From positions 1-29,232 of IMG/VR virus record IMGVR_UViG_3300021964_000354: a stretch of DNA of 29,232 bases; one strand, 5' to 3'. Each line of letters begins with the position of its first letter. The stretch's first letter is position 1. Under the pieces are notes generated by a model. The model was not told the origin of the DNA and made no database searches. It saw nothing but the letters and a program-made list of their open reading frames with translations. The DNA comes from a virus. Below, in pieces: positions 16,704 to 22,171 of this stretch. The translations under genes were made by a program, and so were the position numbers.

Positions 16704-16791
16704 ACTTATCACATTCTTTATTCTTACACTTCATGTCGTCCTTTGGTAGCAACACCTCTCCACAACTTGGACAGGGGATTATAATACTCAA
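16693..16791 (-). CDS. Possible 32-residue zinc-ribbon protein (TTG start)
   Basis: A frame from TTG at 16791, directly after the stop of the previous gene, encodes a peptide with CPSC (7-10) and CKNKEC (22-27), the two halves of a zinc ribbon, and ends inside the terminase gene (11-base overlap with ATG 16703). The paired cysteines in so short a frame are unlikely to be chance, but there is only a weak AAGAAAAAA ribosome site and a non-ATG start. It may help couple terminase translation. Confidence 0.5.
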   Translation of the reverse strand: MSIIIPCPSCGEVLLPKDDMKCKNKECDKYGR

Positions 16792-16950
16792 TTATTTTTT
16801 CTTACGAGTTGTTTTCTTTTTATTCTTAGGAAATCCTGCCTTCATGTTAGCATACGCTTTAGGACTAATTGTAGAGTTCTTTTTAGACCTACTTGTCCCT
16901 GCTTTTTTCCTTTTGTTCATATTATGATACAAACCTTTTTTAGCTGCCAT
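16792..16950 (-). CDS. Small very basic protein (52 aa), MAAKKGLYHNMNKRKK type
   Basis: The protein begins MAAKKGLYHNMNKRKKAG and is over one third Lys/Arg, ending in a TTRKKK tail. Short proteins of this MxxKKGLxxNxxxKRKR type recur in marine phage genomes as far as I recall, with no known function. Nucleic-acid binding is a reasonable guess from charge. AAAGGTG lies about 7 bases before the ATG. The gene overlaps the end of the upstream cysteine protein gene by 11 bases and belongs to the leftward operon leading into terminase. Confidence 0.75.
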   Translation of the reverse strand: MAAKKGLYHNMNKRKKAGTSRSKKNSTISPKAYANMKAGFPKNKKKTTRKKK

Positions 16951-17128
16951 TTACAACACCTTTCCATTTAGCGCACCATGCAAATGATTGCACTGTTGCT
17001 TTCCATAGTGTACAGTAACCTGAAGGTTCATAGAAACCACAGTTACTACATTTCTGATTAGCTTTAGGTGCTAGTTGATACTTCTTAGGTAAATTACTAG
17101 ATAACTGTTCTTGGTTATTTATAGCCAT
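16940..17128 (-). CDS. Four-cysteine protein resembling high-potential iron-sulfur protein (62 aa)
   Basis: The second half shows C-x2-C-x8-C-x12-C (Cys 27, 30, 39, 52) with aromatic context CSNCGFYEP, GYCTLW and FAWCAKW. That layout matches the cluster-binding pattern of HiPIP proteins, which hold a 4Fe-4S cluster; a structural zinc site is the alternative. There is no Tat or Sec signal, unlike bacterial HiPIPs, so it should be cytoplasmic or packaged. It lies in the short-gene leader of the late operon next to other Cys-rich and Lys-rich small proteins. Confidence 0.7.
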   Translation of the reverse strand: MAINNQEQLSSNLPKKYQLAPKANQKCSNCGFYEPSGYCTLWKATVQSFAWCAKWKGVVNGS

Positions 17129-17389: not shown

Positions 17390-17451
17390 TAGTAACCTTT
17401 TTTCTTTTTCTTTCCTTTGGAAACTTTTTTCTTTTTTACTTTATATTTCAT
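17389..17451 (-). CDS. Possible 20-residue lysine-rich leader peptide
   Basis: From ATG 17451 the frame encodes MKYKVKKKKVSKGKKKKKGY, with 12 Lys in 20 residues, and its stop overlaps the next ATG (TAATG), so translation would be coupled. No Shine-Dalgarno precedes it; TATAGT lies exactly 6 bases upstream of the ATG (17463-17458), which fits a leaderless mRNA. It may be a true basic peptide or a leader feeding ribosomes into the operon. Confidence 0.45.
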   Translation of the reverse strand: MKYKVKKKKVSKGKKKKKGY

Positions 17452-17457
17452 AGTGTC

Positions 17458-17489
17458 ACTATATCACAAAACCTCCCCGAAGGGAGGTT
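17458..17489 (-). promoter_or_regulatory. Hairpin with UUCG loop followed by TATAGT, head of late operon
   Basis: On the leftward strand AACCTCCC-TTCG-GGGAGGTT (17489-17470) is an 8-bp stem with an extra-stable UUCG tetraloop, followed by TTTTGTGA and TATAGT (17463-17458). The hairpin plus T-rich tail could terminate leftward transcripts coming from the intergenic region, and TATAGT would be the -10 of the next unit, starting at or very near ATG 17451. No -35 is recognisable; the hairpin occupies its place. Confidence 0.5.
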
Positions 17490-17590
17490 CTGTCGTACAG
17501 TCTGTCCATTTACTGTAATGAAAAATATGAAATCCACAAAACTATCACATCTCTTTACATCAGTACACCATATACTTTTGTTACTTAAAG

Positions 17591-17656
17591 ATGAAAAGTT
17601 TTCTTTCTTTTCATAAATTGAATTGTATCCTCATACAATTGCCTGGATTTTCCAGG
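17591..17656. repeat. Three consecutive perfect hairpins
   Basis: ATGAAAAG/CTTTTCAT (17591-17598 with 17607-17614), AATTGTAT/ATACAATT (17621-17628 with 17633-17640, 4-base loop) and CCTGGA/TCCAGG (17642-17647 with 17651-17656, 3-base loop) follow one another within 66 bp. None has a long T-run directly after it on either strand. They lie between the late operon head and the 43-residue zinc-ribbon frame. Their function is unknown; candidates are a replication origin, RNA processing or protein-binding sites. Confidence 0.55.
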
Positions 17657-17664
17657 TATAAACA

Positions 17665-17796
17665 CTATAGTACAGGCGCGATTATATCGTTGAGAAAAAT
17701 TTTTTTATTTTGACACTTGTCACATAAACCATCAGTAAGTTGGTCCGCCCAAAAAGGTTGTAAACACTTGTCGCAATCTTCTACTGGTATATCCAT
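17665..17796 (-). CDS. Possible 43-residue zinc-ribbon microprotein
   Basis: The frame from ATG 17796 encodes a peptide with CDKC (8-11) and CDKC (25-28), separated by LQPFWADQLTDGL. This is a clear treble-clef or zinc-ribbon knuckle pair, ending in a hydrophobic tail (IFLNDIIAPVL). There is no Shine-Dalgarno. TATAGT lies exactly 6 bases upstream of the ATG (17808-17803), preceded by a GCAA-loop hairpin, the same arrangement as at 17451. It would be the first gene of the leftward unit. The cysteine pattern makes it more likely real than chance. Confidence 0.5.
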   Translation of the reverse strand: MDIPVEDCDKCLQPFWADQLTDGLCDKCQNKKIFLNDIIAPVL

Positions 17797-17802
17797 ACTG
17801 TT

Positions 17803-17832
17803 ACTATAGCAAAGCCTCACTTGCGTGAGGCT
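17803..17832 (-). promoter_or_regulatory. Hairpin with GCAA loop followed by TATAGT
   Basis: Leftward strand: AGCCTCAC-GCAA-GTGAGGCT (17832-17813), an 8-bp stem closed by a GNRA tetraloop, followed by TTGC and TATAGT (17808-17803), then AACAGT and ATG 17796. It has the same layout as the element at 17458-17489. It may be a terminator followed by a -10 for a leaderless start. Confidence 0.5.
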
Positions 17833-17840
17833 AGTACTAT

Positions 17841-17900
17841 ACAAACAAAGAAAGGAGGGCTATATATTAATCCAGAAGGATTGATTTATATTGCCTTTCT
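17841..17900 (+). ncRNA. Orphan leader plus long imperfect hairpin
   Basis: ACAAACAAAG followed by AAAGGAGG (17841-17858) has the same leader and ribosome-site layout as several early genes here, but no ATG or GTG follows. Instead the sequence folds into a long imperfect hairpin centred on an AGAA loop (17874-17877), with AATCC/GGATT and TATA-rich arms closing up to GGGC/GCCT, in all about 18-20 pairs with a few mismatches. It could be a small RNA, a terminator-like structure or a decayed gene start. Confidence 0.35.
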
Positions 17901-17945
17901 CTGCTTTTAGTATAACATACATTACCACTATGCAAGTAAAAGGTG

Positions 17946-18005
17946 TGGGGTTTCTGTGGTTGGGCGTAAGCGAAAGGAGGAAACTCTTACTAAACAAAAA
18001 CCCCA
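17946..18005 (+). ncRNA. Candidate nested stem presenting an anti-SD-like loop
   Basis: TGGGGTTT (17946-17953) pairs with AAACCCCA (17998-18005). Inside it GTAAG (17966-17970) pairs with CTTAC (17986-17990), leaving CGAAAGGAGGAAACT in the loop. No start codon follows the exposed AAAGGAGG. It may be a structured RNA element or chance in an AT-rich region. Confidence 0.25.
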
Positions 18006-18617
18006 TAATAAATACTACCACTAAAAACAAAGCATGGTATAGTAAAGAAACAAGCAAAGGTTTCTTCCTGCTTTTAGAAAAGGAATCTTGACAATATACA
18101 GTCAATAAAGTGGCACAGCAGGTCCATGGTAACTAGGGTTAAAGCCTATTACTTCACATATTTATTTGTTACTATTTTTAGTTCATTCTGGTTTTGGGAG
18201 GGAGTGACACAGGGTTAGAAGTACTGACCACTACAGTAAAGTAATATATTTATTTTTCACAATACTTACACTTAGTGATTTTTATTTCACAAATTACCCT
18301 TATTGTGTACATACTACATCTAGTACCACAATATATAGTACCACCTTTAACAGCATATCTTTTCAGGGTACAATACAATACAATAGGGGTACACACATTA
18401 AACCCCCCCTAATTTGTCCTATAATATACATTATGTTGCATTCGGTTATATATAGTAATTAGGTTTCTTTTGGATAAGTCTATAAACACTATGATTCAAT
18501 ATAGGGTGACAATGTACCTAGTTTAAACAGTTACAAGAGAGGGTATGCCTGTTAATACTCTCTAACCTTATCTAAAGAGTGGTAAAAAAAAACTAAGAAA
18601 TCTAAAAGAAATACTTT

Positions 18618-18642: not shown

Positions 18643-18671
18643 TCTATTAACAAACAAACAAAGGAAAAAAA

Positions 18672-19543: not shown

Positions 19544-19683
19544 TATACCATATATAGTATGTACGAAAATAATGTGAGCTTGTTTAAACAGGGGTAGACA
19601 GGTCAACAACTAAATTATTATTTCTTTGTAAATAGTTGTTGTATAAATCATAGATGTAGTAAGGTTAGTAGTAACAAACAAAG
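19544..19683 (+). promoter_or_regulatory. Complex early promoter module A (GTTTAAAC, CAACAAC/GTTGTTG repeat, AACAAACAAAG leader)
   Basis: In order: TATACCATATATAGT (19544-19558); GTTTAAAC (19582-19589); an inverted repeat CAACAACTA (19604-19612) with TAGTTGTTG (19633-19641); a candidate -35 TTGTTG (19636-19641) formed by the right arm; 18 bases on, TAAGGT (19660-19665) as -10; then leader AACAAACAAAG (19673-19683) and ribosome site. A copy with the same internal spacings lies before the gene at 21836. The repeat over the -35 suggests operator control. Confidence 0.55.
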
Positions 19684-19692
19684 TAGGAGAAT

Positions 19693-20186: not shown

Positions 20187-20636
20187 ATGACAGGCGAAAG
20201 AGGAATAGATTTCAGTAACTGTTATTACGCTAACTTCTGGGCGTTCAAAGAGATGGACAAGGAGGAACAGAAAGAATATGTTTTGGTTCATGCAGTCAGA
20301 GAAATGGCGCATGAATGGTGGGGTGGTCATGCTTTCCTACTTAACAAAAAGACTAATAAGATTTTGGATTTCTCTAATGGTAAAAGATTAGAGGGAACAA
20401 AAGAGGAGATGTTTAAACAGTGGAACATTCAAGAGGATGGATTAAGAATGTATTACGAATATACATTTAAAGAATCTGTTATCCAATGTGCTAAGACTGG
20501 TACTTATGGAGCTTGGGATTTACTGTTTGAAGACTGGAAGAACGAAGAATGGGGTAGCTATATGAATAACTATTTCATTCCAACATTCCAACCAGACCTA
20601 TACCAATTACGACAAACAAAGAAAGGGGTTGTTTAA
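20187..20636 (+). CDS. Early protein, unknown (149 aa)
   Basis: The protein is rich in aromatic residues (many Trp, Tyr, Phe). Residues 35-65 (HAVREMAHEWWGGHAFLLNK, then TNKILDFSNG) have a strand-turn-strand look reminiscent of papain-like or transglutaminase-type folds with a catalytic-looking His, but a Cys nucleophile is not evident, so I assign no function. The start follows GGGG and GTTTAAAC plus A. The stop is inside the next GTTTAAAC (20631), giving C-terminus KKGVV. Another GTTTAAAC is inside the frame (20411, encoding M-F-K-Q). Confidence 0.65.
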   Translation: MTGERGIDFSNCYYANFWAFKEMDKEEQKEYVLVHAVREMAHEWWGGHAFLLNKKTNKILDFSNGKRLEGTKEEMFKQWNIQEDGLRMYYEYTFKESVIQCAKTGTYGAWDLLFEDWKNEEWGSYMNNYFIPTFQPDLYQLRQTKKGVV

Positions 20637-21723: not shown

Positions 21724-21824
21724 GTTTAAACACATAGCACATAGTCAACAACCATCTATAAATAATATTGTAAATGGTTGTTGCTAAGTGTCAATGTGTG
21801 GTAACATGGTAACAACAAACAAAG
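21724..21824 (+). promoter_or_regulatory. Complex early promoter module B, copy of module A
   Basis: GTTTAAAC (21724-21731), then after the same 22-base offset CAACAACCAT (21746-21755) pairing perfectly with ATGGTTGTTG (21774-21783). TTGTTG (21778-21783) is a candidate -35, TAACAT (21802-21807) 18 bases later the -10, then leader AACAAACAAAG (21814-21824) and GGAG. TTGTAAATRGTTGTTG is shared with module A. The 10-bp stem could also terminate weakly or attenuate readthrough from upstream. Confidence 0.55.
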
Positions 21825-21835
21825 GAGAACAAACA

Positions 21836-22171
21836 ATGGCTAACGAAATAAAATCATTTCAAGGATATGTAAACCAATCTTTGATGGACGCAGGTAAACA
21901 CAAGACAGAAGATTACTTAGAGATAATGACTGGGTTGTTTGAACAAGGACATCTAAACATACATCAAGTATTTCTGTTTATGCAGACCTTAATAGTTAAG
22001 GCAGAGGATAAGAAAGTAAGAAGTTACTTAGAACTTAACCCAACTATTGCTAATAATGTGCAAGACACAATAGACTATGGATTCGTAACAGAGGATGGAG
22101 AGTTAACTCAACACTGTATTGACACTCTAACTAAAGAGGGTTACGAAGTAGAAACAAAGGAGGTTGTTTAA
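21836..22171 (+). CDS. Early protein, unknown (111 aa)
   Basis: I start the gene at ATG 21836 (MANEIKSFQGYVNQSLMDAG), which has AAAGGAG 8 bases before it; an in-frame ATG at 21788 lies inside the promoter module and has no ribosome site. The protein is helical and acidic; residues 30-55 (LFEQGHLNIHQVFLFMQTLI) form an amphipathic or hydrophobic helix pair. No family is recognised. The stop lies in GTTTAAAC (22166), giving the C-terminus KEVV shared in style with two other genes. Confidence 0.65.
   Translation: MANEIKSFQGYVNQSLMDAGKHKTEDYLEIMTGLFEQGHLNIHQVFLFMQTLIVKAEDKKVRSYLELNPTIANNVQDTIDYGFVTEDGELTQHCIDTLTKEGYEVETKEVV

Follow-up and report, generated by a model that had tools for sequence, protein, structure and literature searches.

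The window, which denotes here the whole stretch of 29,232 nucleotides that was analysed, is taken from an IMG/VR virus record. The phage is marine and uncultured, and its early (plus strand) and late (minus strand) genes form divergent blocks. At 17452-17900, between these two blocks, six strong hairpins had been noted in the original prediction, and all six structures were found at their coordinates, folding as described. The window has seven perfect stems of at least 8 bp (loop 3-10), four of which fall within 17470-17832. In the 449 nt of 17452-17900, 4 such stems were observed compared with a mean of 0.06 and a maximum of 2 in 400 dinucleotide shuffles, and for stems of at least 6 bp, the corresponding values are 6 observed, a mean of 1.1 and a maximum of 5. 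The hairpins are therefore real, but the structured region does not end with them and runs on to about 18220. The closely spaced hairpins belong to two small structured RNAs, B and C, which together with RNA A represent three RNA families arrayed on the minus strand at approximately 17466-18220. When read on the minus strand, the tetraloops are UUCG (17470-17489) and the GNRA loop GCAA (17813-17832), which points to a minus-strand RNA. The folding z-score of RNA C is -5.3 on both strands, while that of RNA B is -6.7 on the minus strand and -4.6 on the plus strand. As the plus-strand values are also strong, the choice of strand is based on the loops, the terminator and the promoter-like sites, and not on the folding z-score alone.

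The terminase of this phage is merely about 25% identical to those of cultured phages. A set of 80 relatives was fetched by terminase search. In BLASTN comparisons, conservation covers the block that extends upstream of the late genes as far as about 18411, despite the lack of a long ORF there. Two DNA patterns from the conserved block were scanned in IMG/VR, and the locus counts given below are counts among the matches listed. The three RNA families are conserved in more than 150 IMG/VR marine phage contigs. TerL lies downstream on the same strand in 180 of the 180 loci where it was found (among the matches listed), at a distance of 0.2-3.3 kb in most relatives, and the early genes lie upstream and are divergent. 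A stop-free frame on the RNA strand exists in just 1 of 65, 1 of 50 and 4 of 35 sequences in the three RNA alignments. The window's only DNA match to cultured phages is a small lysine-rich gene at 16775-16952 (minus strand), whose DNA is shared at 70-80% identity with pelagiphages, a Methylophilales phage and a cyanophage.

RNA C (approximately 17466-17660, minus strand) was found by nhmmer in 170 loci (among the matches listed), and its strand is that of RNA A in all 152 loci having both. Its covariation score is 0.574 compared with 0.209 for shuffled alignments. From its 5' end, RNA C consists of hairpin C1 (17642-17656; CCUGG, a loop of the AAAAU type, CCAGG), hairpin C2 (17621-17640; loop GAGG, which is G[A/G]GG in relatives), a palindromic arm (17591-17614), hairpin C3 (17496-17517) and a terminator (17467-17492). 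An inventory of stems was prepared with the loops as anchors and no constraint on the stems. In C1, 48 distinct stems carry a near-constant AAA(G/A)-type loop, and 97.7% of the cells are paired; C2 has 41 distinct stems on a GRGG loop; and the terminator has 45 distinct stems with UUCG, GCAA and other loops, with 95-98% of the cells paired. C3 (ACAGU/ACUGU) is nearly invariant, so covariation cannot test it; its helix was counted in a wrong register, and none of the claims depends on that count. The palindromic arm could form a local hairpin or a long-range pairing with a TTTCATA segment. The minimum-energy fold of RNA C opens the palindrome and pairs the 5' arm with the distal TTTCATA; hence the palindrome is present, but it may not be the separate hairpin that was first described.

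At the 3' end of RNA C, the UUCG-loop stem (17470-17489) runs into UUUUGU, and this GC-rich stem followed by a U tract constitutes an intrinsic terminator. The suggestion of a multi-terminator element thus holds for this hairpin alone and fails for the remaining ones. Directly after the terminator, at 17392-17452 (minus strand), there is a 20-codon lysine-rich micro-ORF (MKYKVKKKKVSKGKKKKKGY), which recurs, for example, in locus L115. Upstream of RNA C lies a region that is promoter-like by consensus (17664-17707, minus strand), with TATAGT at 17664-17669 and an A/T tract at 17694-17707, and by eye, the same arrangement is also seen in relatives. Between RNA B and RNA C, an ORF of 43 amino acids with two CxxC pairs was read from the sequence (17668-17796, minus strand), and tblastn found relatives of it in 73 loci (among the matches listed). 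In many genomes, a conserved A(5-9)T(5-9) tract, which is 17694-17707 in the window, is located at the end of the CxxC ORF and upstream of the RNA C promoter-like site; it is possibly an UP element.

RNA B (approximately 17801-17905, minus strand, both ends estimated) consists of a P1 hairpin, a linker and P2/P3. P1 is the long imperfect hairpin at 17849-17900, and P2/P3 includes the GCAA tetraloop hairpin at 17813-17832. The P3 hairpin has 39 distinct stems closed by GNRA loops, mostly GCAA or GCGA. The covariation score of RNA B is 0.360 compared with 0.134 for the control, an excess that is weaker than for RNA A and RNA C. The linker GCCCUCCUUUCUUUGUUUGUAUAG (17837-17860, minus strand), which contains an anti-Shine-Dalgarno (anti-SD) sequence and UUUGUUUGU, is the proposed pairing region, and in the predicted fold it is largely paired within P1. 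A promoter-like site (17909-17935, minus strand) precedes RNA B, with TTGCAT at 17930-17935, a 15-nt spacer and TATACT at 17909-17914. A site of the form TTGNNN-N15-18-TAWWNT, identified by consensus, lies upstream of the linker in 134 of 160 loci (among the matches listed), often with the unusual 15-nt spacer. Directly 3' of RNA B, no clear terminator was found in most genomes.

RNA A is a structured RNA with a pseudoknotted core of about 200 nt. The core (18006-18220, minus strand; most conserved at approximately 18036-18218) has five helices including the pseudoknot, whose 5' arm CCUGC(U) at 18117-18122 pairs with the 3' arm (A)GCAGG at 18067-18072. The alignment (A1) contains 65 copies, all below 90% identity, and in it 170 double-sided compensatory cells were counted, compared with 51 ± 5 in shuffled alignments. 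In the five-helix structure, 91.6% of the cells are paired and the pairing collapses when the structure is slid by one column; as the structure was defined by visual inspection of this very alignment, it has a head start over the slid versions, and it is the size of the gap that matters. In relatives, the pseudoknot occurs as CCUGC/GCAGG, GUAGC/GCUAC and CUAGC/GCUAG, and UCAC/GUGA versus CCAC/GUGG is an example of a compensatory change. Plain RNAalifold recovered part of the structure in the 5' domain, and we account for the partial recovery by the pseudoknot. In the TerL-linked groups, RNA A is followed by another hairpin, A' (17946-18005, minus strand), with a variable outer stem, an inner stem and a constant anti-SD loop AGUUUCCUCCUUUCG. 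With this loop as the search anchor, 42 distinct outer stems were counted in 69 loci (among the matches listed). Upstream of RNA A, at 18313-18411 (minus strand), there is a further conserved block. It comprises a GGGGGG tract and ATATGCTGTTAA together with the palindromic GGTACTAYATATAGT, which is directly repeated two to three times in units of about 15 bp. One possible role of this block is that of an operator or promoter region for divergent genes.

The array is arranged differently in a distant group of four loci (L195, L201, L221 and L259). There, RNA A lies between early genes and convergent tail/lysis genes, and RNA B/C are replaced by a different RNA-like element of about 110 nt, which consists of a closing stem, a constant CCCCUUU loop on variable stems and then a strong canonical intrinsic terminator. 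Such an arrangement, with its own terminator, speaks for an independent array of RNAs rather than for a leader of the late genes only. In locus L220 (1570-2400), an inserted ORF of 112 amino acids separates RNA A from the RNA element downstream, so that the two are separable modules.

With compensatory base-pair changes in all three families, a common strand and an intrinsic terminator on RNA C, the structured non-coding RNA that the original prediction had listed among several possible functions is strongly supported; structural conservation in relatives had been named there as a test that could refute it, and the covariation found is positive. At the gathering threshold, the window and six relatives have no match in Rfam 15, including GOLLD, ROOL and Phage_pRNA. 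A permissive scan gave sub-threshold Rfam matches only, the best being istR at 24.9 versus 45 bits, on the terminator. No credible match to RNAs A, B and C was found in 50,697 phage records, and blastn of RNA A, RNA B/C and the distant variants against cultured phages returned only short chance matches or matches of the UUCG-terminator type. The covariance model of RNA A scored 16.8 bits in HTVC010P (E 0.006, rough), at a site that overlaps annotated genes, while HTVC204P gave 11.9 bits, and both were judged to be chance matches because true RNA A members score 161-223 bits. In bacterial genomes (257 Gb), there were 5 exact pattern matches, about the number expected by chance in AT-rich DNA, and with L261 left out, none was confirmed as RNA A. 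No description of the three RNAs was found in the open-licence literature. What appears to be new is the trio of families, the array that they form and the set of several early leaders proposed below as targets; IMES-type marine RNAs were compared via Rfam.

The RNA B linker CCUCCUUUCUUUGUUUGU is complementary to the ribosome-binding sites of early genes. In the window, six early leaders are complementary to it. One predicted target is in the leader of early gene 20639 (20611-20629, plus strand), which contains a 15-nt perfect complement ACAAACAAAGAAAGG with a pairing energy of -25.0 kcal/mol (z -4.9). Further predicted plus-strand targets are in the leaders of early gene 18672 (ACAAACAAACAAAGGAAA; 18649-18666; -17.1 kcal/mol, z -4.7; 8-mer matches), early gene 19693 (19673-19688; -19.9 kcal/mol, z -2.6) and the gene with ATG at 21836 (21814-21829; -16.7 kcal/mol; 8-mer matches). 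The late leaders of the window are mostly near background, with the exception of gene 26737, through a strong Shine-Dalgarno (SD) sequence. In the early leaders 20639, 20824, 22174, 19962 and 20187 (plus strand), the spacer from the SD sequence to the start codon is nearly identical and contains GTTTAAAC, in the form GGTTGTTTAAACATG or GATGTTTAAACAATG.

The same trend was found in the genomes that carry this linker (group G1), where a match of at least 8 nt to the linker's non-SD half is present in 70 of 279 early leaders (5.2 expected), compared with 0 of 94 late leaders (0.7 expected); since the genomes are related, these match counts overstate independence. Leaders contain 20.5 linker matches per kb, compared with 3.5 for the early strand and 1.3 for the late strand, and the matches peak 11-14 nt before the ATG. 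Linker group G3 has a differing leader motif of its own, G3-like GGTTAATAAACAG, in 11-19 leaders compared with 2.5-3.9 expected. In G2 genomes, no leaders match the non-SD half (0 of 158 and 0 of 74). The energies of own versus swapped linkers are mixed, the own linker not being the best partner in G2 and G5, and a fine-scale test of covariation between linker and leader was not significant (p 0.23). Leaders with ACAAACAAA are also enriched in the cultured phage HTVC010P (7 of 28 compared with 1.7 expected), in which no RNA B was recognised, and hence RNA B need not be the reason for the leader motif. On the basis of these matches, RNA B looks built for pairing to the ribosome-binding sites of early genes in its own phage.

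We propose that the hairpins belong to a cassette of minus-strand structured small RNAs in the divergent control region and that RNA B is a GcvB-like silencer of early translation, a reading to which we give about an even chance of being correct. From the promoter-like sites and the linker matches, we infer that RNA B and RNA C are separate transcripts from their own sigma70-like promoters and that RNA B acts in trans. Its linker, with the anti-SD sequence CCUCCUUUC and UUUGUUUGU, would pair with the ACA-rich leader and SD sequence of early mRNAs (ACAAACAAA..AAGGAG), which would block ribosome binding and lower the translation of early genes, probably later in infection. RNA A and RNA C are probably regulatory RNAs as well, although their role is putative. 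In a wider form of the proposal, A, B and C would make up one RNA-based early-to-late switch in which B silences the early genes while A and C interact with the ribosome or with one another, with the CCUCC loops of A' and B kissing the GRGG loops of C; we regard this form as rather unlikely.

Two other readings keep the structured RNAs and assign them different roles. RNAs A to C may belong, as cis-acting modules, to a single long 5' leader on the late transcript and, without trans targets, serve in antitermination, processing or translation control of the CxxC gene and the late genes. The RNAs do share the strand of the late operon with TerL invariably downstream where found, the CxxC ORF of the window comes directly after RNA B and has relatives in other loci, and the linker is internally paired in the predicted fold. 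However, a conserved intrinsic terminator closes RNA C, promoter-like sites stand ahead of B and C, RNA A of the distant group lies upstream of convergent genes in an array with its own terminator, and the complementarity to early leaders is left unexplained, so that we consider the late leader possible but doubtful. Alternatively, the RNAs may have another trans function, for example on the ribosome, an RNase or RNA polymerase or as a protein decoy, and the match to early leaders would be a by-product of an anti-SD sequence meeting a common ACA-rich early leader. The constant loops of RNA A and RNA C, which have no known targets, the occurrence of ACAAACAAA leaders in HTVC010P and the negative G2 and fine-scale tests are consistent with this. 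The UUUGUUUGU half, which lies outside the anti-SD sequence, nevertheless matches early and not late leaders, and one early ribosome-binding site is matched perfectly over 15 nt; we consider a by-product unlikely.

The other functions suggested originally, a replication origin or a packaging (cos/pac) site, would make the DNA hairpins themselves the functional element. The divergent early/late boundary coincides with a minimum of the GC skew, and TerL is usually nearby. But the sign of the skew follows the coding strand throughout: it is negative again at 27-29 kb, where the genes are again on the minus strand, and so the minimum near 18 kb tracks gene strand and lends no independent support to an origin. 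Moreover, the stems covary, the loops are RNA tetraloops on one strand, and the terminator and promoter-like sites have that same orientation. A packaging site is likewise unsupported, as the position relative to TerL is not constant and, in the distant group, the region lies away from TerL between early genes and convergent tail/lysis genes. We therefore regard this explanation as very improbable.

Phage-encoded structured or antisense RNAs as such are an already known kind, and OOP of lambda and sar of P22 are small phage RNAs that control the phage's own genes by base pairing. The c4 RNA of P1/P7 (PMC12197685) resembles RNA B in the same way, as a small phage RNA that regulates the phage's own genes by base pairing. 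All three have one or few, mostly local targets, whereas RNA B is proposed to act in trans on several early leaders. In enterobacteria, GcvB exerts silencing through ACA translation enhancers located upstream of the SD sequence (PMC3879156), and the likeness proposed for RNA B consists in the pairing of a G/U-rich linker of the unpaired type with an ACA-rich sequence just ahead of the SD sequence in many mRNAs. RNA B differs in being phage-encoded, in its sequence and structure, in having an anti-SD sequence in the linker as well and in its proposed targets, the phage's own early genes. The C-rich sRNAs RsaE/RoxS and LhrC of Firmicutes (PMC9217828, PMC4132741) also have hairpin-held pyrimidine-rich CCUCC/CCCC motifs that suit SD pairing, but RNA B has no Rfam sequence match, belongs to different hosts and has an extended specificity part, UUUGUUUGU. 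RNA A is comparable to GOLLD and ROOL (PMC12286853), which are phage-encoded, structured RNAs with pseudoknots and of unknown function; it differs in its size (about 200 nt versus 600-800), in its structure and in having no tRNA island and no Rfam match.

RNAs A, B and C occur widely in marine viromes, in phages that are abundant but uncultured, yet they have no Rfam family and no convincing match in cultured phages. If the proposal for RNA B is true, a phage of the lytic type would turn down a whole block of its early genes through one trans-acting RNA, which would be a post-transcriptional switch. The structures of the three RNAs also provide RNA markers for following the infection of this lineage in ocean metatranscriptomes.
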